A stretch of DNA of 53,221 bases from Calditrichota bacterium. Its GTDB lineage: Bacteria; Calditrichota; Calditrichia; Calditrichales; J004. The stretch is from positions 1 through 53,221 of the forward strand of contig RFFS01000073.1 of assembly GCA_003696775.1 (NCBI GenBank), in the 5' to 3' direction. The first letter of the stretch is position 1; every line of letters begins with the position of its first letter. Made by a program: the position numbers and the translations under genes. The notes below the pieces were generated by a model, which was not told where the DNA came from, searched no databases, and saw only the letters and a list, made by a program, of their open reading frames with translations. Positions 7,302 through 47,020 of the stretch are shown piece after piece.

Positions 7302-7465
7302 TACTTAGCTTCCTCGAAATGTACACACTGAGCTTTGTCGAAGTGTACACACTGAGCTTTGTCGAAGTGTACACACTGAGCTTTGTCGAAGTTAACACTG
7401 AGCTTTGTCGAAGTGTACACACTGAGCTTTGTCGAAGTTAACACTGAGCTTGTCGAAGTGTACAC
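7302..7465. repeat. Tandem array of a 24-bp repeat (TGTACACACTGAGCTTTGTCGAAG)
   Basis: Six head-to-tail units start at about 7321, 7344, 7368, 7392, 7414 and 7438. A degenerate unit precedes them (about 7302-7320) and a final TGTACAC follows (7459-7465). Two units are 21-22 bp because TGTACAC is replaced by TTAAC. The core CACTGAGCTT(T)GTCGAAGTG is a sequence I know as a short dispersed repeat in many unrelated genomes. Copies are adjacent without spacers, so this is not CRISPR. The array ends exactly at the stop codon of the small gene at 7465. Confidence 0.9.
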
Positions 7466-8066: not shown

Positions 8067-8957
8067 TTATTTAATTCTAAAAAATTCGATCCGACGGTTT
8101 TTAGCACGCCCGGCGCGGGTATCGTTAGGCGCTATGGGATTTTCCGGGCCGAATCCGCGGGTTTGAATACGCGCCCCGGCCACACCCCGGTCTATCAGGT
8201 ATTTTTTAACCGCTTCGACACGGCGAGACGATAAGGCTACATTTTTATCATAGTTGCCGGTGTTATCCGTATATCCCCGTATCTCCACCTCAATTTCCTG
8301 TTCACTTAACAATGTGGCGGCGACCTTATCCAAAATGGATTGGGAACTCTCCGTGAGTTGCGCACTGCCGGTGGCAAAGGTTACCCCCTCCAGAACAATA
8401 CTTTTGCCTTTATCAACCGCAACCGCCGGTTTATTGTCGGGACATCCGTCCGCATCTTCATAACCGTTTGGGGTTTCGGCCTCATCCGGACAGGCATCAT
8501 CCGCATCGGCGATGCCGTCGCCATCGTTATCAGGGTCCGGGCAGCCGTCATCATCCCGGAAACCGTCTTTATCTTCCCGTGTGTTCAGGTTGTTATCCGT
8601 GCCGGGACATTGATCATCCTTATCCAGGATACCGTCGCCGTCATTATCCGGGTCCGGCACGCCGTCTTTATCTTTATAACCATCATGGTCCTCGGCCTCC
8701 AGGGGCGCCTGATCATCCACATCCAAAACACCATCCATGTCGTTATCCGGATCGGGGGCGCCATCTTCATCCTGAAAGCCATCCACATCCTCCGCGTGTA
8801 ACGGGTCTTTATCTTCGGAATCGATGATACCGTCCTTGTCCGTATCGGCGGGTTTACCGAAATAAAGTGAAACACCTGCGGCCAGAGTGAACCAGTTATC
8901 AGTCTTATCGCCGCGGTCGTATCCGTCCAAATAATCAATAAAAGAGGCATGTACCAA
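8067..8957 (-). CDS. OmpA-family protein, C-terminal part (calcium-binding repeats plus OmpA domain; frameshifted from N-terminal part)
   Basis: This 296-aa frame continues the protein begun at 9454 in another reading phase. It starts with the last barrel strands (WFTLAAGVSLYFG). Six or so thrombospondin type 3-like calcium-binding repeats follow, rich in DxDxDG (DTDKDGIIDSEDKDP, PDPDNDGDGILD, PDPDNDGDGIADADD). It ends in an OmpA peptidoglycan-binding domain of about 110 aa (FATGSAQLTESSQSILD, EIRGYTDNTG, LSSRRVEAVKKYL, NRRIEFFRIK). The apparent start (TTG at 8957) is artificial: the frame is open back to the A run at 8989-8993. The intact protein would anchor the outer membrane to peptidoglycan through a calcium-stiffened linker. 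A terminator follows. Confidence 0.85.
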   Translation of the reverse strand: MVHASFIDYLDGYDRGDKTDNWFTLAAGVSLYFGKPADTDKDGIIDSEDKDPLHAEDVDGFQDEDGAPDPDNDMDGVLDVDDQAPLEAEDHDGYKDKDGVPDPDNDGDGILDKDDQCPGTDNNLNTREDKDGFRDDDGCPDPDNDGDGIADADDACPDEAETPNGYEDADGCPDNKPAVAVDKGKSIVLEGVTFATGSAQLTESSQSILDKVAATLLSEQEIEVEIRGYTDNTGNYDKNVALSSRRVEAVKKYLIDRGVAGARIQTRGFGPENPIAPNDTRAGRAKNRRIEFFRIK

Positions 8958-8986
8958 GGCCTCGGATTCAACGGCCAGATAATCAT

Positions 8987-9454
8987 TTAAAAATAGGTTA
9001 CACCCACGCCAAAAGGTATGGCGCTGTTCAGCTTGGCGTAATCACCACGGTTGACCCCCGCTGCAAAGGCGGGTACACGATGACCGTTTTGGGCCTTCGG
9101 ATCTATATCAAACCGCTCGAAACCAAAAGCCAAATAAGGATTGAGCGCCCAGTCATTCCAGGGTTTATATTTTATAAGACCCATATAATTCCAGACATTC
9201 GTGGTGAAATATTCCGAACCGTCTTCGGCGCTGAGTACCCCCCTGCCAAACGTCAAACTGACACCCAGGGCGTTACTGATCCACCATTGCGCATGGCCTT
9301 CAATGTAACCATTCAGCGCGGCGCCATCCACATCACCGGAATAGCGTTCAAAACCGCCTTTTAAACCAAACCCCGCCTTACCGCCGGTTTCATCGGCATA
9401 AACAAACGAAAGCGGCAGCAACACGCTGCATAAAAGCGTAAACAACAACCTCAT
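8987..9454 (-). CDS. OmpA-family protein, N-terminal beta-barrel part (truncated by frameshift)
   Basis: 155 aa. A signal peptide (MRLLFTLLCSVLLPLSFVYA) is followed by alternating amphipathic strands typical of an eight-stranded outer-membrane barrel (GFGLKGGFERYSGD, ALGVSLTFGRG, PYLAFGFERFD, IPFGVGVTYF). The frame stops at TAA 8987-8989 inside a run of five T on the minus strand. One more T would read ...TYFLNDYLAVESEALVHASF and join it smoothly to the part at 8957. The gene is therefore one ORF broken by a single-base deletion, a sequencing or assembly error in a homopolymer, or a -1 slip site. The first two are simplest. Confidence 0.85.
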   Translation of the reverse strand: MRLLFTLLCSVLLPLSFVYADETGGKAGFGLKGGFERYSGDVDGAALNGYIEGHAQWWISNALGVSLTFGRGVLSAEDGSEYFTTNVWNYMGLIKYKPWNDWALNPYLAFGFERFDIDPKAQNGHRVPAFAAGVNRGDYAKLNSAIPFGVGVTYF

Positions 9455-9717: not shown

Positions 9718-10479
9718 ATGCATCCGACTTCCACTGATACCCCGCGTGCGTTGATCCTGGCGGCAGGCAGAGGGACACGCATGAACAGTCCGCTCCCGAA
9801 AGTATTGCATCCCCTGGGCGGACGCCCCATGCTGCATTATGTTATCGAAGCATTATATAAAACCGGTGTTTCCGCTATGGGCGTGGTTTGCGCGCCACAC
9901 AACCGCTTCACCATCGGGGATTCCCGACCGCCTCATCCGGTGGACTATATTATACAGGAGAAACCATTGGGCACGGGACATGCCGTTATGGCCGCGCGTC
10001 CCTGGCTGGAACAACATGAGGGCCCCCTGCTACTGGTGGTGGGCGACGCGCCCTTAATCACACCGGGTATCCTGAAAAATCTAACCCGTGAACGGGCCCG
10101 TCTTAACGCCGCGGCGGTATTTTTAACCGTACGTTATGACAGCACCCCGCCTCCCTGGGGCCGCGTAATTCGGGATGCCTCCGGAAAGGTAATCGGCATT
10201 GTGGAAGAAAAAGACGCCGACTATGAACAGAAAAAAATCCGCGAAGTGAGTTCCTCGCATTATTGTTTTGATACGCCTGTGCTGCTCGAAGCTCTCCATC
10301 ACATCGATAATCATAACGCGCAAAACGAGTACTATCTCCCGGATGTTATAGCCTGGATGATACGTCGGGGGCATGCGGTGGGCACGGTAACCACGGACGA
10401 TCCCCTTCCGGCCACCGGAATCAACACACCCGAAGACCTCGCCCGTGCCGAAGCATTGTTGAAAGGAATATCCGGATGA
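9718..10479 (+). CDS. Sugar-1-phosphate nucleotidyltransferase (GlmU N-terminal/MurU-like)
   Basis: 253 aa. The nucleotidyltransferase signature LILAAGRGTRMNSPLPKVLHPL lies at residues 13-34, followed by IIQEKPLGTGHAV and the metal-binding region VVGDAPLI. These are hallmarks of the uridylyltransferase domain of GlmU, which makes UDP-GlcNAc from GlcNAc-1-phosphate and UTP. The left-handed beta-helix acetyltransferase half of GlmU is missing. Length and layout therefore match stand-alone enzymes such as MurU. The ATG of the next gene, a GHMP sugar kinase, overlaps its stop (ATGA), implying a kinase/nucleotidyltransferase pair that activates a free sugar. Substrate not determined; an N-acetylhexosamine is favoured. 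Confidence 0.85.
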   Translation: MHPTSTDTPRALILAAGRGTRMNSPLPKVLHPLGGRPMLHYVIEALYKTGVSAMGVVCAPHNRFTIGDSRPPHPVDYIIQEKPLGTGHAVMAARPWLEQHEGPLLLVVGDAPLITPGILKNLTRERARLNAAAVFLTVRYDSTPPPWGRVIRDASGKVIGIVEEKDADYEQKKIREVSSSHYCFDTPVLLEALHHIDNHNAQNEYYLPDVIAWMIRRGHAVGTVTTDDPLPATGINTPEDLARAEALLKGISG

Positions 10480-11528
10480 TAAACAGCGAAGCGCCGGGCC
10501 GCATTTGCCTGTTTGGCGAACATTAGGACTACCTGCAACTCCCCGTGATCACCTGCGCCACCGACCTGAAAATCACGATCAGCGGCACACCCGCAAAGGA
10601 TGGTCGCTTTATCATCCGCATGCCGGATATCCAGACCGAAGAACGCTTTGAAATCGACGGTTCCCGACTCGCTTATGTAAAAAAACGGGATTATCTGCGT
10701 AGCGTTTACAATGTTTTACTCAAACACGGTGTGGCGCCCCGAAATGGAGCGGCATGTACCATCCGCGGCACCATTCCCATAAACGCCGGCACCTCATCAT
10801 CTTCCGCCTTATGTGTGGCCTGGACACGTTTTTTATTGCGCCTGAACGGCTCGGAGAAGGCCGATGACGCCCATTTTGTGGCACGGATGGCCTGGCTGGC
10901 GGAAGTTACGGAATTTAATGAACCCGGCGGCATGATGGACCCATACGCTTCCGCCCTGGGTGGTGTGCAGCTTCTGCGTTTCCATCCGCGGGTAAAATCC
11001 GTGGCGTTGCGCCTGCCGCCGGGGCGGTTCATCCTGATCGATTCGGGTGAACCCAAGGATACCCTTGGTTTACTGGCACGTGTACGACAGGGTGTGCGGG
11101 AAGCCGTCCGGCAAATGAAAGGATTCTACCCGGATTTTGATTTATTCACAACACCTCTGGAAAAAGTGCGGGCCTTTTGGGACCGCCTGCCGGATAACGG
11201 AACGGCTTTATTACAGGGGGCATTAATGAACCGGGACATCACACAACAAGCGGTCCGGCTGATTCAGGAACATCCCTCCCCTGAGCAAGCTTTTGGCGCC
11301 CTGCTCAACAGGCATCATTCGGTGTTGAGTGGAAAGACAGGCGTCAGTACAGAAAAAATCGATCGCCTGTGGCGGGCGGCACGCGAAGCGGGGGCGTTGG
11401 GAGGTAAAATAAATGGCTCGGGAGGCGGGGGATGCTTGTTTGTTTATACCACGGGCGCGCCCGAACCGATCATGGAGGCGGTACAAAAAGAAGGCGCCGC
11501 GCGGGTATATCCGTTGCGCACGGACTAA
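10476..11528 (+). pseudogene. GHMP-family sugar kinase (galactokinase-like) interrupted by an in-frame amber codon
   Basis: From the ATG at 10476, which overlaps the previous stop, the frame reads MINSEAPGRICLFGEH, then TAG at 10524-10526, then DYLQLPVITCATDL and on to 11528 without a break. The family motif here is normally GEHxDY, most likely GEHQDYL, so CAG has become TAG. The downstream part keeps the ATP-binding motif PINAGTSSSSALCVA and the C-terminal GGKINGSGGGGCLFVY. A GTG at 10545 could restart translation, but the product would lack the sugar-contacting motif 1. Genuine nonsense mutation, sequencing error and read-through are all possible. TAG is used as a normal stop elsewhere (for example at 41365 and 43296), so recoding is unlikely. 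Intact, it would phosphorylate C1 of a sugar for the enzyme encoded just upstream. Confidence 0.75.
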
Positions 11529-38852: not shown

Positions 38853-39704
38853 ATGTTTAAGAAGATGGTCTATTTAGTCAGCCTGACGGCAATCGGTTAT
38901 ATCTTTTATCGTTATTGGGACTATTACACCCTGCCCTATGCCCTGCGCCCGCGGCATGAGTTATACAACCTGCTAAAACCGGGAGGTCTGTTTGGACATG
39001 GAGTGGGCATCATCGGTTCCGCCATGATGATCCTTTTGCTGCTCTATTCCGTACGCAAACGTACACGACTGTTCGGCCGGTTCGGTGCGGTCAGCCGCTG
39101 GTTGGATGTACATATCTTTTTCGGTACCATCGGGCCTTTATTGATTGTATTGCATTCCACATTTAAACTCAACGGTATTGTATCCATCAGTTTCTGGTCC
39201 ATGGTGAGCGTGGCCTTAAGCGGATTTGTGGGCCGCTACCTCTATATCCAGATTCCGAGAACCCTGCGGGGCCGGGAATTGACACTGGAGGAGATTGACA
39301 ACCGCCGCCGGGCCCTGCGCGAGGAACTGATGCAGAAATACCACCTGGAGGAGCGGGAAATTCATCAGGTTGCCGCTTCCTTAAGTATTAAAGCCGGACA
39401 AAAAACTTTGCTCGGTTTGTTGTTTGGCATGGCCCTTGCCGATATCAAGCGTTTGTTTACTTTTAAAAAGGTCAAACGTACGTTAATGCGCCGTCATAAA
39501 ATCAGCAAAAACGAAGCGGTTGAATTTTTGAATATGGTTACGGAAAAGGCTTTGCTGGAACGCCGTAAACGTATTTGGGAGCGGGTGCATACTCTTTTCC
39601 ACTACTGGCATGTGTTTCATAAACCTTTTGCCATCATCATGTATCTGATAATGATCATACATGTTTCGGTTTCGGTTTGGTTGGGTTACACCTGGATATT
39701 CTGA
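38853..39704 (+). CDS. Membrane b-type cytochrome-like protein of the multiheme cluster
   Basis: 283 aa. Five hydrophobic segments can be read, at about 5-22, 50-68, 88-107, 113-130 and 260-280. A charged cytoplasmic-type loop separates the fourth and fifth (residues 140-255). Histidines lie at helix positions that could hold heme b: FGHGVGIIG, VHIFFGTIG, VLHSTFK, HYWHVFHK and IIHVSVSV. It does not match a cytochrome b family I can name; it is reminiscent of ferric-reductase-like and cytochrome b561 folds. It is the first gene of the operon, and its stop overlaps the next start (TGATG). It is the likely inner-membrane electron entry or exit point. Confidence 0.78.
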   Translation: MFKKMVYLVSLTAIGYIFYRYWDYYTLPYALRPRHELYNLLKPGGLFGHGVGIIGSAMMILLLLYSVRKRTRLFGRFGAVSRWLDVHIFFGTIGPLLIVLHSTFKLNGIVSISFWSMVSVALSGFVGRYLYIQIPRTLRGRELTLEEIDNRRRALREELMQKYHLEEREIHQVAASLSIKAGQKTLLGLLFGMALADIKRLFTFKKVKRTLMRRHKISKNEAVEFLNMVTEKALLERRKRIWERVHTLFHYWHVFHKPFAIIMYLIMIIHVSVSVWLGYTWIF

Positions 39705-41365
39705 TGAAACGATTCAAACACATCTTGTTTATTACGGCTGTATTATTGCCATTCAAATGCCTGTTCGCGCAACTGTCACCCGGAGATTTGCACCGTTCGC
39801 ACGCTTTTCTCGAAGGGCTGGAAAATTGTACTAAATGTCATGAAAGCGGCCGAAAGCTTAATCCGGATAAATGTCTGGATTGTCATGTTGTGCTTAAAAA
39901 ACGCATTGACAATAAAAAAGGGCTTCATGCCGGTAAAAAATTCAAAGATTGCGCCACCTGCCATGTGGAACACCACGGTCGCGATTTTGACCTGATTTAT
40001 TGGGAAAACGGTCGGAATAATTTTGATCATAAAGCCACCGGTTACACGCTTGAGGGCGCCCACGCCAAACAAAAATGCCGCGATTGCCACGCCCCCCAAA
40101 ATATCCGCGGTCCGGATTGGGAAGTGCTGAAAAAGGCTAAAAAGAAAGCGGATCATACCTATTTGGGGCTTAACACCGACTGCCTTTCCTGTCATCGGGA
40201 TGAACACCGCGGCCAACTCTCCGAAAAATGCACAAACTGCCACAACTTTAAGGCCTGGTCGCCCGCTCCGGGTTTTGATCACGGCACAACAAAATATCCC
40301 CTGACCGGTTTACATAAAAAAGTAAAATGCGCTCAATGCCACAAAACCATTACAGACAACAAATACCCGAAAGACAAAAGTTATGTTCGTTTTGCCGGAT
40401 TACGATTTCCGGCCTGTATCAATTGTCATAAAGACCCGCACCAAAACAAATTCGGCTCCCGGTGCCGCACCTGTCACGTAACCGACGGTTGGAAACAATA
40501 TAATAAACAGAAATTCAACCATGATAAAACCCGGTATCCGTTAGAAGGCCGGCATCGCGACCTGGCCTGCGAGGCGTGTCATAAACCCGGTCAGCCCCTT
40601 CGCATCAAACGGTTTTCACAATGTCGGGACTGTCACCGTGATGCACACGCCGGGCAATTTTTGCACAGTTCCTCGCGCGGCGCCTGCGCGGCGTGTCATG
40701 ATGTAAACGGATTTAAACCCGCGCATTATACCATTCAAGAACACCAGACGTGCGCCTTTCCTCTCGAGGGGGCGCATCGGGCCGTGCCTTGTATCGCCTG
40801 CCATAAACAAGCGTTGATTTCCGGCCGTACCCGAACCATGCAATTCAGGTTTAAAAACCTGCGCTGCCAAACCTGCCATGATGATGTTCACAAGGGAACG
40901 GTTAACCGCTGGATGACCGAAAAAAATCCGACCGGTCGGGTTGGCTGCCGGGCCTGCCATTCTTCCGTATCCTGGTCGGATATCGCTTTTGATCATGACC
41001 AAACCGACTTTCCCTTACAGGGACGCCATAAGGATGTCGCCTGTAAAAAATGTCATTATCAGACCAGAGGCGCCGCGCCCCACTGGCGCTTCACGAACAG
41101 TCCCACCCGATGCGCTTCCTGTCATAATGATATCCATCGCGGTCAATTTGCCTCTTCTGACGGGCAAGTGGATTGTGTTCGGTGCCATACACCCGACAAC
41201 TGGAAAGCGGAAAAATTCAACCATGAAACCGACAGCCGATTTAAACTGGAAGGCGCCCATGAAAGCGTGGCCTGCGTACAATGTCATAAACCTGCCATCC
41301 TAAATGGTACGAAATTTGTAAAGTATAAACCCCTCGATATGCGTTGTGAAGCATGCCACGGGTAG
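39704..41365 (+). CDS. 20-heme c-type cytochrome
   Basis: 553 aa from the ATG at 39704, which overlaps the preceding stop; a signal peptide (MKRFKHILFITAVLLPFKCLFA) opens it. I count 20 CxxCH motifs, from CTKCH near the N-terminus to CEACH at the last residues. They recur in a unit: F(D/N)H..T.(Y/F)PL.G.H followed by C..CH. The histidines in FDH and GxH are good candidates for the second axial ligands. No catalytic domain is visible, so it looks like an electron wire rather than an enzyme. Periplasmic or outer-membrane facing. Co-translated between the b-type protein and the next cytochrome. Confidence 0.95.
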   Translation: MKRFKHILFITAVLLPFKCLFAQLSPGDLHRSHAFLEGLENCTKCHESGRKLNPDKCLDCHVVLKKRIDNKKGLHAGKKFKDCATCHVEHHGRDFDLIYWENGRNNFDHKATGYTLEGAHAKQKCRDCHAPQNIRGPDWEVLKKAKKKADHTYLGLNTDCLSCHRDEHRGQLSEKCTNCHNFKAWSPAPGFDHGTTKYPLTGLHKKVKCAQCHKTITDNKYPKDKSYVRFAGLRFPACINCHKDPHQNKFGSRCRTCHVTDGWKQYNKQKFNHDKTRYPLEGRHRDLACEACHKPGQPLRIKRFSQCRDCHRDAHAGQFLHSSSRGACAACHDVNGFKPAHYTIQEHQTCAFPLEGAHRAVPCIACHKQALISGRTRTMQFRFKNLRCQTCHDDVHKGTVNRWMTEKNPTGRVGCRACHSSVSWSDIAFDHDQTDFPLQGRHKDVACKKCHYQTRGAAPHWRFTNSPTRCASCHNDIHRGQFASSDGQVDCVRCHTPDNWKAEKFNHETDSRFKLEGAHESVACVQCHKPAILNGTKFVKYKPLDMRCEACHG

Positions 41366-41373
41366 GAGAATTT

Positions 41374-43296
41374 ATGGGAATTTGCAGGCGAATGACTTTT
41401 ATAAAATGTTTGGCGGGGCTTATGCTTATACAGGTGTTTTGTGCCCGCGGCCAGGAAACCACCCGCAATCCCCACGGCCCCCTGCCCGGTTTTGAATGCG
41501 TTACCTGTCATACAACTACCAACTTTCATGACATCCCTGCTTTTAAATTCAATCATGATCAAACCGGTTATCCGCTTATCGGCCGGCATGGCAAGGTACC
41601 CTGCGCTTCCTGTCACCAAAGCCTTGTTTTTAAGCAGGTGGGTGTCGCCTGCGCGGATTGCCACACCGATGTCCATCAGGGAGAATTGGGCATACGTTGT
41701 GAAAACTGCCACACCACGGCAGGTTGGGAAAATCGCATGGATATGCTGGATATGCATAATCAGACCAATTTTCCCCTTGTTGGTGTGCATGCTAACCTGG
41801 AATGCACATCCTGCCATCGGACAACCGACGCCGGACACCAATTCAGCAACACACCGGTCCAATGTAAAGGATGCCACCTGACCACCTTTATGAAAACACT
41901 TAATCCCGCACACCAAAAAGCGGGTTTCGACCTAAACTGCGAAAAATGCCATTTGCCCAATCAAAGAGGCTGGAAAAACGCCATTTTCGAACATACACAA
42001 CTTTTCCCACTCACCGGCGGACATGCCCGCCTGGAATGTATTTCCTGCCATGCCAATGGTTATGGCGGCACACAGGCCGATTGTTACACTTGCCATAAAA
42101 AAGATTACGAAAGCACCACCAACCCCGATCACGCATTATTCGGCTTTCCTACGGTATGTCAACAATGCCATACCACCACAACATGGGTCCGCGCGGAATT
42201 TGATCATCTCGAGGCCAGTGGTTTTGATTTAACCGGCGCGCACAGTACCATTCAATGCATCGATTGTCATGTAAACAATAAATTGAACGGCTTGCCGAGA
42301 GATTGTTTTGGCTGTCACAACACCGACTTTAACAACACCGATGATCCGAACCATGCCGCCAACAACTTCAGTCATGATTGCACCACCTGTCATAACACCA
42401 CACAGTGGTCTCCGGCTAACTTCGATCACGCCAACACCAATTTCCCGCTTACCGGCGCCCATACTTCCGTCAACTGCATCGACTGCCACAGCAACGGTTA
42501 CAGCAACACGCCTTCCGATTGCTGGAGTTGCCATAGCAGCGACTTTAACAATACGGACGATCCGAACCATGCCGCCAACAATTTCAGTCATGATTGCACC
42601 ACCTGTCATAACACCACACAGTGGTCGCCGGCTAACTTCGATCACGCCAACACCGATTTCCCGCTTACCGGCGCCCATACTTCCGTCAACTGTATCGACT
42701 GCCACAGCAACGGCTACACCAACACGCCCACCGATTGCTGGAGTTGCCATAGCAGTGATTTTAATGGTGTGCAGGACCCCAACCATGTAAGCAACAATTT
42801 CAGTCACGATTGCACCACCTGTCATAACACCACACAGTGGTCGCCGGCTAATTTTGATCATAACAATACCGACTTCCCGCTCACCGGCGCCCATAAGCAA
42901 CAGGATTGCGCCTCGTGCCATAGCAACGGTTACAGCAATACACCCACGGAATGCGTGGCCTGCCACCAGTCCGATTATGACGGCACAACCAATCCCAATC
43001 ACGCGGCCGCCGGTTTCCCAACCACCTGCGATGACTGCCATGACACGGATAATTGGGAAGGCGCTACGTTCGATCACGACAGCCAATATTTCCCCATCTA
43101 TTCCGGGAAGCATAAAAACGAATGGGATACATGCAGCGACTGCCATGTAAACAGTGACAACTACAAGCAATTTGAATGCATCAACTGCCATGAACACCGA
43201 AAATCTAAAATGGACGACGAACATAAGGATGTTAGCGGATATGTCTATAACAGCGCGAATTGTTATTCGTGTCATCCCAACGGGAAAGGGGATTAG
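41374..43296 (+). CDS. 25-heme c-type cytochrome with internal tandem repeats
   Basis: 640 aa from ATG 41374, with GGAG 5 nt ahead; the frame is open back to 41353. A signal peptide (MTFIKCLAGLMLIQVFCA, following a short MGICRR start) leads the protein out. I count 25 CxxCH motifs. Units have the form FDH.NT.FPLTGAH....C..CH.NGY..TP.DC..CH. Three consecutive 72-residue units (about residues 318-533) are almost identical and carry three hemes each. No other domain is visible. Likely a long periplasmic or surface-exposed heme wire. It overlaps the next cytochrome gene. Confidence 0.95.
   Translation: MGICRRMTFIKCLAGLMLIQVFCARGQETTRNPHGPLPGFECVTCHTTTNFHDIPAFKFNHDQTGYPLIGRHGKVPCASCHQSLVFKQVGVACADCHTDVHQGELGIRCENCHTTAGWENRMDMLDMHNQTNFPLVGVHANLECTSCHRTTDAGHQFSNTPVQCKGCHLTTFMKTLNPAHQKAGFDLNCEKCHLPNQRGWKNAIFEHTQLFPLTGGHARLECISCHANGYGGTQADCYTCHKKDYESTTNPDHALFGFPTVCQQCHTTTTWVRAEFDHLEASGFDLTGAHSTIQCIDCHVNNKLNGLPRDCFGCHNTDFNNTDDPNHAANNFSHDCTTCHNTTQWSPANFDHANTNFPLTGAHTSVNCIDCHSNGYSNTPSDCWSCHSSDFNNTDDPNHAANNFSHDCTTCHNTTQWSPANFDHANTDFPLTGAHTSVNCIDCHSNGYTNTPTDCWSCHSSDFNGVQDPNHVSNNFSHDCTTCHNTTQWSPANFDHNNTDFPLTGAHKQQDCASCHSNGYSNTPTECVACHQSDYDGTTNPNHAAAGFPTTCDDCHDTDNWEGATFDHDSQYFPIYSGKHKNEWDTCSDCHVNSDNYKQFECINCHEHRKSKMDDEHKDVSGYVYNSANCYSCHPNGKGD
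42325..42972 (+). repeat. Three tandem 216-bp coding repeats inside the 25-heme cytochrome
   Basis: Units start at 42325, 42541 and 42757, all opening GA(C/T)TTTAA, and are nearly identical over most of 216 bp (72 codons). Each contributes CTTCH, CIDCH (or CASCH in the third) and CWSCH (or CVACH). More diverged units flank them, starting at 42103 and 42973. The exact period and nucleotide-level identity point to recent in-frame duplication or gene conversion. Confidence 0.93.
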
Positions 43297-44083
43297 TCCT
43301 TTATTTTTTATCGTCGGGGTCTTTTTGGCCGTCATCCCCCTTTTCGGCCGGGAAAATCCCCACAACGCGACAATAGGCCCATGCGCCGACTGTCATATTG
43401 AGCAGGATTGGAATATGATACATTTTAATCATGATACGACCGGCTATCCCCTGATTGGCCGGCACAAGGAACAAGCCTGCGCGGCGTGTCATGATATTGT
43501 CGATTTCAAAAAGGTTGGCGCTGATTGCCGGGATTGTCATCTCGATGTGCATCAGGGGCGCTTAACCCCTCAATGCGCCACCTGTCACACACCCGGTAGC
43601 TGGGCTGTTTTATCCGCTGTGCAAGCTCACCGTTCCACATTTTTTCAATTGCTGGGCGCTCACGCCTCACTGGATTGCTATCAATGCCATCGTAACGGGA
43701 GGGACAATGGATTTTTAATAACGCAAACACTATGTGCCGATTGTCACATAGAAACGTACAACGCCACGGGTGCCCCAAACCACCGCGCGGCCGGATTCGG
43801 TTTGCAATGTGAACAATGCCATAATCTGATCCGTTGGACGCCCGCCTTATTTCCGGGCCATGATGATCTGTTTCCCATATTTAGCGGCACCCATTCCGGA
43901 GAATGGAACACCTGTGCCACCTGTCATGAGTCATCCGGTAACTATGCCGCTTTCACCTGTTTTAATTGCCACGAACATAACCGGGCGGCCACGGACAGCA
44001 AACATGATGAGGTTTCGGGATATGTATATGCAAGCAGCGCCTGTTATGCGTGTCACCCCACAGGGAGTGGTGAAAATGATTAA
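43241..44083 (+). CDS. 10-heme c-type cytochrome
   Basis: 280 aa if started at ATG 43241, which overlaps the end of the previous gene by 56 nt. That start gives a basic N-region and the hydrophobic stretch SPLFFIVGVFLAVIPLF, a plausible signal peptide. No better start with a ribosome-binding site is seen closer to 43297, and the exact start is uncertain. I count ten CxxCH motifs, from CADCH to CYACH. The opening FNHDTTGYPLIGRH and the ending EVSGYVYASSACYACHP closely resemble the start and end of the 25-heme protein. It therefore looks like a shortened paralogue lacking the repeated centre. Confidence 0.88.
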   Translation: MSITARIVIRVIPTGKGISPLFFIVGVFLAVIPLFGRENPHNATIGPCADCHIEQDWNMIHFNHDTTGYPLIGRHKEQACAACHDIVDFKKVGADCRDCHLDVHQGRLTPQCATCHTPGSWAVLSAVQAHRSTFFQLLGAHASLDCYQCHRNGRDNGFLITQTLCADCHIETYNATGAPNHRAAGFGLQCEQCHNLIRWTPALFPGHDDLFPIFSGTHSGEWNTCATCHESSGNYAAFTCFNCHEHNRAATDSKHDEVSGYVYASSACYACHPTGSGEND

Positions 44084-45704
44084 ACAAACCCATTGGACCC
44101 GATATATTCCGATCGGGCTGATTCTGTTGCTTGTATTAGCGCCCGCGACTGCTCTTTTCGCGCAGGGCAAGACCGTTTTTGCCGTAAAATATATCAGCGC
44201 GGAAAACGTTTATCTCAACGGCGGGGCGCGGGACAGCCTGGCGCAGGGTGATGAATGCACGGTATTGCACAACGGTAAGGAAATCGCCCGGTTGCGCGTG
44301 GCCTATGTCGCCGGTCATTCGGCTTCCTGTGAAATTCTGGAAAAAAAAGAGCCCATAAGCGCGGGAGATCGCGTGGTGGTGGTCAGGCGCGCCCCGCGCG
44401 TTTCGAATAAGAAGAAAGAAAAAACCGAAGCGGTGAAACAAGCGGCTCCCGTTAAAAAAAGAAAAAGACAACGTCGGTCCGCGGGGCCTAAAATCAGCGG
44501 ATACCTCTCGGCTCAATGGTACCGTTTTGACGACCTCGGCGCGGGCAACCGGGATTTTAATCAGCCAACCTTCCGTTTTAGTTTGCGCGCGCGCCGTTTG
44601 TTTGGCGATGCCTATACCCTGCGCATAAAAGCCCGTAGCCGTTACGACCAGCGACGCTACGCCAGTCGGACGGGCATTCCGGACAAGGAATGGCACAATC
44701 GGCTTTATGAAGTCTCTTTTCGTTATGAAAATGAAAACGCGCCGTTCAATTACGCCGTTGGTCGCGTGTTCTCCAACGCCTTCAGCGGTGTGGGGTACAT
44801 AGACGGCCTGATGGCGCAACACAATATCAATACCAACTGGCGCTGGGGGCTTTTTGGCGGTATCCAACCGGAATGGCAATACGCCGATGTCTCGGCCACC
44901 ATCCAAAAGTACGGTGTTTTTGCCTCATACAGCCTCGGCGATTTCCGTACCAGACGTTTTGCTTCCACCTTGTCGCTGGCCGGGGCGTACCATAACAGCG
45001 AGGTGAGCCGGGAATTTATGTATTGGCAAAACAGCTATACGGTCGGCAGCCGTCTGTACCTGTTTCAAAGTTTGGAATTGGACCTGAATCGCGATTGGAA
45101 ACAGACCACCACCCACGAATCGGTCAGCATGACGGGTTTGTATCTGAACGGGCGTTATCAATTCAACAATCAATGGTCGTTGGGCATGAGTTATGATAAT
45201 CGCAAGAATTATCTGACGTGGTTTTCCCGTGATTTGGCCGATAGTTTATTTGACGATGCTTTCCGTCAGGGTTTACGCCTGTCGGTCAACGGTCGTTTAT
45301 TCCGGAATTTCCGTGTTTACGGTAATGCCGGACTGCGCCATCGTCAGGATCAACCGGATATAACCTGGTCGTACATGGCCGGGGTTAACTGGAATCGTAT
45401 CATGCGCACGGCATTCAATTTTAATTTCCGATACGCCGGTTTCAACAATTTCTATACGATCGGCGTTAACCCGACGGTCTCCGCCGGGTGGCGGATGCGC
45501 GGCGGCCATCAGCTTCGGGCGTCCTACGGCTATTACGGATACACCTTAAAAGCCGATCAAAGTTTTAACCAGCGGCAATGGATGCGGTTTAATGCCGATT
45601 TCGAGCTGCCGGTTCGGATCTTTTTAAGCTCGGAATATCAATATGAATGGGGAGACGATTTAAACGGGCAACGTTTTTTTATTGAATTGGGATACAGGTT
45701 GTAG
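44076..45704 (+). CDS. Outer-membrane beta-barrel protein of the multiheme cluster
   Basis: 542 aa from ATG 44076, which overlaps the preceding stop by 8 nt. A signal peptide (YIPIGLILLLVLAPATALFA) leads to a small periplasmic beta-domain (about 30-110, KTVFAVKYISAENVYLNGG to AGDRVVVVRR). A very basic linker follows (KKEKTEAVKQAAPVKKRKRQ), then about 380 residues of alternating strands with aromatic girdle residues. It ends in the terminal strand FFIELGYRL, the usual barrel C-terminus. Position among the cytochromes suggests it houses or receives a multiheme wire, as MtrB-type porins do; sequence similarity to MtrB is not apparent. Confidence 0.85.
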   Translation: MIKQTHWTRYIPIGLILLLVLAPATALFAQGKTVFAVKYISAENVYLNGGARDSLAQGDECTVLHNGKEIARLRVAYVAGHSASCEILEKKEPISAGDRVVVVRRAPRVSNKKKEKTEAVKQAAPVKKRKRQRRSAGPKISGYLSAQWYRFDDLGAGNRDFNQPTFRFSLRARRLFGDAYTLRIKARSRYDQRRYASRTGIPDKEWHNRLYEVSFRYENENAPFNYAVGRVFSNAFSGVGYIDGLMAQHNINTNWRWGLFGGIQPEWQYADVSATIQKYGVFASYSLGDFRTRRFASTLSLAGAYHNSEVSREFMYWQNSYTVGSRLYLFQSLELDLNRDWKQTTTHESVSMTGLYLNGRYQFNNQWSLGMSYDNRKNYLTWFSRDLADSLFDDAFRQGLRLSVNGRLFRNFRVYGNAGLRHRQDQPDITWSYMAGVNWNRIMRTAFNFNFRYAGFNNFYTIGVNPTVSAGWRMRGGHQLRASYGYYGYTLKADQSFNQRQWMRFNADFELPVRIFLSSEYQYEWGDDLNGQRFFIELGYRL

Positions 45705-45706
45705 CT

Positions 45707-47020
45707 ATGCAGGAAAGTTATCTGATTTGGGGCGGCACGCTGTTTATGGCGCTGATCATCATTTTTCCTTTTATCCGGGCGCATCACAAAACACTTAAGA
45801 AAGATGAAGCGCGCAAAAAAGAAGCGGTCTTCCTCGGCGCCGACAAAACCATTGCCCAGCACCCGATCATCGATGAATACCGTTGCATTGGCTGCGGGGC
45901 CTGCGTGGATGCCTGCCCTGAAAATGATGTGCTGGGTATAGTCGCCGGCAAAGCCACCATCATTAACGGCTTAAAGTGTGTGGGGCACGGCATGTGCGCG
46001 GAAGCCTGCCCCGTGGAAGGTATAACCGTGGGCCTGGGTGATACGAGTAAACGCTCCGACCTGCCCTTTATCAGGGAAAACCGTGAAACCAATCTGCCCC
46101 GTGTGTACATTGCCGGAGAGCTGGGCGGGCTGGCATTGATAAAAAACGCCATCCGTCAGGGGCGCGAGGTGGCCCTGGATATCGCTGAACGAATCAAAAA
46201 GAACCCGGACATTCCCGCAAGCGATAATGCGGTCGATGTCATAATTGTGGGCGCCGGGCCATCCGGGATGAGCGCCGCCCTGACCGCCATCGAAAACAAT
46301 CTCACCTATCGACTGTTAGACCAGCAAGACCCCGGCGGCACCATTTTACAATATCCGCGAAAAAAACTGGTTATGACCAAACCGGTTACCATTCCCTTTT
46401 ACGGAACCCTGACCAAACCGGAATACTCAAAGGAAGAGTTGTTGGATATTTGGTATGCCGTCATGGATAAATCCGGCCTAAAAGTGGAAACGGGATGCAA
46501 ACTGACCGGTTTGCAGGAGGAGGGCGCGTATTACCGGGTGACCACCAACAATGGCAGCTTTAAAAGCCGCTATGTGGTTTTGGCTTTGGGACGGCGGGGA
46601 ACACCGCGCAAACTGGGCGTACCCGGCGAAGACAAACCCAAGGTCATGTACAAATTGATCGACGCCGAAACCTTTACGGACAATCATATTTTGGTGGTCG
46701 GCGGCGGGGACAGTGCCGTGGAAGCCGCCATGGGTCTGGCACGGCAAAAAGGAAACCGCGTGGTGCTTTCGTATCGCAAGGAAAAGTTCTTCCGCATTAA
46801 AAGACGGAACCAGGAGCGGCTGGAAGCCATGATCCATGATAAAAAAATCATGGTCTTATACAATTCCCACCTGCGACGCATAGACGATTCCGCCGTGGTG
46901 GTGGAATGGATGGGTGAAAAGAAAAAAATCCGTAATGACTATGTATTCATTTTTGCCGGCGGCGAACCGCCCTTTGAGTTACTTAAACAGTGCGGTATTC
47001 AATTCGGAACGACGGATTAA
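45707..47020 (+). CDS. Membrane-anchored ferredoxin/FAD-NAD(P)H oxidoreductase
   Basis: 437 aa. A single N-terminal helix (LIWGGTLFMALIIIFPFI) anchors the protein. Residues 55-105 hold two ferredoxin-like clusters. The first is complete: Cys60, 63, 66 and 70 in CIGCGACVDACP. The second reads CVGHGMCAEACP, with His where the second Cys is expected. A thioredoxin-reductase-like flavoprotein follows, with FAD motif IIVGAGPSGMSAA and NAD(P) motif LVVGGGDSAVEAA. The redox CxxC of thioredoxin reductase is absent, so it is more like a ferredoxin/flavin reductase. It starts 2 nt after the barrel gene. Its likely task is electron exchange between NAD(P)H and the membrane cytochrome. Confidence 0.88.
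   Translation: MQESYLIWGGTLFMALIIIFPFIRAHHKTLKKDEARKKEAVFLGADKTIAQHPIIDEYRCIGCGACVDACPENDVLGIVAGKATIINGLKCVGHGMCAEACPVEGITVGLGDTSKRSDLPFIRENRETNLPRVYIAGELGGLALIKNAIRQGREVALDIAERIKKNPDIPASDNAVDVIIVGAGPSGMSAALTAIENNLTYRLLDQQDPGGTILQYPRKKLVMTKPVTIPFYGTLTKPEYSKEELLDIWYAVMDKSGLKVETGCKLTGLQEEGAYYRVTTNNGSFKSRYVVLALGRRGTPRKLGVPGEDKPKVMYKLIDAETFTDNHILVVGGGDSAVEAAMGLARQKGNRVVLSYRKEKFFRIKRRNQERLEAMIHDKKIMVLYNSHLRRIDDSAVVVEWMGEKKKIRNDYVFIFAGGEPPFELLKQCGIQFGTTD

Follow-up and report, generated by a model that had tools for sequence, protein, structure and literature searches.

A Calditrichota bacterium carries a sugar kinase gene in which a TAG codon lies close to the start of an otherwise open frame. This raises the question of whether the gene has been lost, the draft sequence is in error, or the codon is read as something other than a stop. 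To answer this we analysed contig RFFS01000073.1 (C109), a stretch of 53,221 nt that is referred to below as the window. It belongs to assembly GCA_003696775.1 (G000), which holds 3.25 Mb in 201 contigs and is 96.9% complete. The kinase gene occupies positions 10476..11528 of the plus strand. Its frame opens at ATG 10476, which overlaps the TGA of the upstream ORF (9718-10479), and is closed by TAA at 11526-11528. A preliminary description of the locus had reported an amber codon inside a GEH-stop-DYL motif and no other flaw between the ATG and 11528. The sequence and an alignment of relatives agree with both points: the TAG (10524..10526, plus strand) is codon 17, the x of GEHxDY, it is in frame with the ATG and the TAA, and the read-through product is 350 residues long and matches three Pfam families.

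On the basis of the ORF, the Pfam and NCBIfam searches and the alignment, we assigned the gene to the galactokinase branch of the GHMP kinase family, with which its read-through product shares the N domain, the C domain and the galactose-binding signature. The first two domains were found over the Pfam cut-off in the read-through frame (GHMP_kinases_N, PF00288, 42.7 bits; GHMP_kinases_C, PF08544, 42.0 bits). The signature with GEHxDY (GalKase_gal_bdg, PF10509) scored 33.6 bits against a cut-off of 23.1 and was seen on the read-through frame only. The nearest solved structures by sequence are galactokinases, PDB 6q3w and 1wuu among them, and galactokinases are co-linear with the window kinase across residues 5-337. 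By contrast with that branch, the window gene is interrupted by a stop and its product is below the cut-off for galactokinase proper (TIGR00131; 76.5 bits against 226.65). The scores for mevalonate kinase and HddA are also below the NCBIfam cut-offs. The product thus resembles galactokinases and mevalonate kinases and is far under every listed NCBIfam equivalog cut-off.

Residues were counted over loci L003-L111 (n = 109), from which we kept the 92 with a frame matching at E <= 1e-20; the remaining 17 distant loci had no such frame and were left out. At codon 17, 88 of the 92 relatives have Gln (codon CAG in 70, CAA in 18), one has Ser and three have no residue. The proposal that the original motif read GEHQDYL is therefore right for the family, as Gln is present in 88 of the 89 relatives not gapped in this column. 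Examination of the same codon in relatives had also been suggested, and the strong orthologues have no stop. These are matches in related genomes at E <= 1e-90 and number ten (G001, G003, G004, G007, G010, G012, G013, G024, G031 and G037). When a position is called near-invariant if at least 97% of at least 70 rows share the same residue, 41 of the 350 kinase positions qualify in the 92-relative alignment, so the chance of a stop landing on one is about 12%. Given this chance, and because an early stop would abolish the protein anyway, the location of the TAG inside the motif is not special in itself.

That the family residue at codon 17 is Gln speaks for one explanation, namely that TAG has been reassigned, genome-wide or in part, to Gln or pyrrolysine. 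We surveyed internal stops across the genome in 138 family matches (ResIII 12, ABC_tran 30, RF-1 2 and Response_reg 94). None of the 138 contains an internal TAG, and the only one with any internal stop has a TAA, as part of a split response-regulator domain. RF1 (prfA) is intact, scoring 533.6 bits against a cut-off of 423.25, and RF2 is likewise present over its cut-off. Anticodons were assigned to every tRNA match with E below 0.001, and none of these 36 confident genes had CTA, although the draft assembly may miss some tRNAs. A lax search added only two weak matches (15.0 and 14.4 bits), below the gathering score. There is a Leu tRNA with anticodon TAG, which decodes CUA and not amber. PylS gave no match in the genome. 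Stop usage was examined in 44 long non-overlapping ORFs of the window, a set that takes in both OmpA-like pieces, the shortened kinase ORF and also some ORFs that are doubtful. These end at TAA in 28 cases, at TGA in 13 and at TAG in 3. The three TAG-ended ORFs encode two multihaem cytochromes and one barrel-like protein in a single cluster, and in each case the start of the next ORF lies directly after the stop or overlaps it. By all tests run, TAG is an ordinary stop in this organism. Recoding was rejected on the strength of RF1, the tRNAs, the absence of PylS, the family counts and the stop usage, and we give it next to no credence.

Low-level read-through is a separate matter. The preliminary description had listed it beside a very recent inactivation and a sequencing error as a possible origin of the stop. 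It would mean that a near-cognate tRNA, for Gln or another amino acid, decodes the TAG at a low rate and yields some kinase, perhaps as a form of regulation. The frame behind the stop is intact and retains its conserved residues, and the Ser found at codon 17 in one of 89 relatives is also in keeping with this idea. However, no strong orthologue has a stop at codon 17, no suppressor tRNA was found in the genome, RF1 is intact and TAG terminates elsewhere. The RNA following the TAG is also unremarkable, since the fold of the next 100 nt has a z score of -0.72 and is matched by 45 of 200 shuffles. Among the three proposed origins, very recent inactivation and sequencing error both fit the intact remainder of the gene; low-level read-through found no support and we consider it improbable. 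More doubtful again is a real and maintained leaky TAG that limits the kinase relative to the nucleotidyltransferase encoded upstream, which would amount to a lineage-specific control of the sugar-salvage module.

Translation might also restart behind the TAG, for example at GTG 10545, and give a shortened kinase with changed activity. The ORF list and the alignment contain a candidate, the longest ORF after the TAG, which has a GTG start 18 bases past it and encodes 327 aa (10545..11528, plus strand). However, such a start would cost the product 10 of the 41 near-invariant residues, and with them the entire GEHxD motif. A ribosome-binding sequence at normal spacing was not seen by eye, and the open frames of relatives are full-length. 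We regard a restart as very unlikely, more so than either form of read-through. Promoter-like sites were at chance level. Terminator-like sites numbered 6 against a shuffle mean of 2.4, with 3 on the minus strand, and none lies on the plus strand between 10479 and the TAG.

The state of the rest of the gene bears on the age of the stop. Other than at codon 17, the window kinase keeps all 40 of the near-invariant positions. Two of the ten strong orthologues are in the same genus and are the nearest relatives, 57-58% identical to the window kinase. In a tree of 27 sequences (the window kinase and the best 26 of the 92 relatives), it groups with two same-genus copies with 98% SH-aLRT. Its end branch is 0.9, compared with about 0.65 plus 0.03-0.05 for the sister copies. 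Relative-rate counts, for which 8 relatives were used, compared sites unique to the window with sites unique to G001. With G004, G010 and G013 as outgroups, the kinase gave 36/31, 36/37 and 39/25 (chi2 of 0.37, 0.01 and 3.06, not significant); the intact partner nucleotidyltransferase gave 26/28, 29/25 and 26/27. The kinase may be evolving slightly faster, though not significantly, and a long decay of the gene is unlikely. The earlier statement that the gene is free of decay elsewhere holds, given that all other near-invariant positions are kept and the rate excess is not significant. Because of these two results and the intact frames in relatives, a very recent stop fits. The stop is probably recent, a judgement drawn from the retained conserved positions and not from close strains, the relatives being 57-58% identical. 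A search of the G000 genome revealed no second kinase orthologue that would cover the loss; the sole other match is a partial one, 32% identical over query residues 183-340, in a 756-aa frame (C92:4044-4481).

The gene upstream of the kinase is intact and is the first gene of the module (9718..10479, plus strand). From Pfam, NCBIfam and relatives, its 253-aa product is a GlmU-N-terminal-like sugar-1-phosphate nucleotidyltransferase. Pfam NTP_transf_3 and NTP_transferase were both over cut-off, and the top NCBIfam matches are GlmU, under cut-off and in the N-terminal half only. A nucleotidyltransferase 43-54% identical to it directly adjoins the kinase in 6 of 8 relatives' stretches (L146-L153). 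In the other two (L150 and L151) the kinase is alone within the fetched stretch, and beyond the pair none of the eight has a match to this part of the window. Coordinates in G013 and G037 also place such a nucleotidyltransferase beside the kinase. In other bacteria a nucleotidyltransferase adjoins the kinase in 11 of 80 loci, in 10 of these following it. A widespread second nucleotidyltransferase paralogue, roughly 39-44% identical, is located elsewhere, for example on C70 in G000. Within the order, a strong kinase match occurs in only 7 of 20 genomes (G001-G020, several of them incomplete). Judged by these comparisons, the kinase and the GlmU-like nucleotidyltransferase make up a module that is conserved yet patchy, and this pairing is of mild interest of its own. 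The pair in the window may make an NDP-sugar from a free sugar. As a comparison, the zebrafish glucuronokinase/putative pyrophosphorylase DrGKUP is described as a fused protein for UDP-glucuronate salvage (PMC3938481). It is described as having a ~260-aa nucleotidyltransferase and then a ~350-aa GHMP kinase, the same order as the window genes (PMC3938481). DrGKUP is fused in zebrafish whereas the window genes are separate, and the likeness is one of layout.

Our preferred reading, to which we assign a probability of roughly 0.52, is that one very recent nonsense mutation has made the kinase gene a null allele in the strain or population that dominates the assembly. RF1 would read the TAG as an ordinary stop, translation would end after 16 residues and active kinase would not be made; the upstream nucleotidyltransferase would be left intact. 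No polar effect downstream would be expected because the two-gene module ends with the kinase and the ORF that follows runs on the opposite strand. Given its patchy occurrence in the order, loss of the module is probably tolerated. Single-nonsense pseudogenes and null alleles are a general kind in bacterial genomes, and the window kinase resembles them, its gene being patchily distributed and intact apart from one stop. As expected of a pseudogene, the frame is disabled where relatives are intact, with a stop in none of the ten strong matches. We infer that the TAG is real in the organism, recent and activity-abolishing.

Some observations count against a null allele. The base lies in a 201-contig draft, in which a consensus error is possible, the window kinase has a somewhat longer end branch than its sisters, and an OmpA-like frame nearby is interrupted as well, at a T run, which may signal local sequence error. 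The TAG could instead be an artefact of the draft, arising from a consensus or assembly error or from collapsed strain variation, in which case the gene is intact. A lone stop in an otherwise unblemished frame is consistent with this, as are the fragmentation of the draft, the broken OmpA-like frame no more than about 1.5 kb away (T run near 8987) and the response-regulator domain split at C116:24088-24416. However, both broken frames could also be natural, and breaks are not widespread in the genome, as seen from the single internal stop among the 138 family matches. We hold an artefact to be a tentative explanation that nevertheless carries real weight. The TAG in the kinase gene looks like an ordinary recent gene loss or an assembly error, not a new reading of the code. 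If reads confirm the TAG, it would be a further example of how a dispensable sugar-activation module is lost, seen here at the first mutation. The locus also carries a caution: in drafts of uncultured bacteria, a lone stop should be backed by reads before it is taken as a sign of read-through or recoding.

Several other features were noted. On the minus strand, OmpA-like parts at 8067-9454 occupy two different frames, with the T run at their junction. The N-terminal part (8987-9454) matches the OMP_b-brl barrel just under cut-off and the C-terminal part (8067-8957) matches OmpA. They look like parts of a single OmpA-family gene interrupted by a frameshift, either natural or assembly-derived. 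Outside the window, the response-regulator domain on C116 of G000 extends over two frames with the TAA inside. At about 7320-7460, after a small ORF, a unit of ~20-24 bases was seen by eye in several head-to-tail copies. On the plus strand, three consecutive multihaem cytochrome genes (39677-44083) contain 20, 25 and 10 CxxCH motifs. They are followed by the barrel-like protein (43860-45704), a label read from its sequence as no Pfam family matched, and then by a ferredoxin/flavoprotein reductase (45707-47020). From its gene content, this run of cytochromes, barrel and reductase looks like an extracellular electron-transfer cluster.
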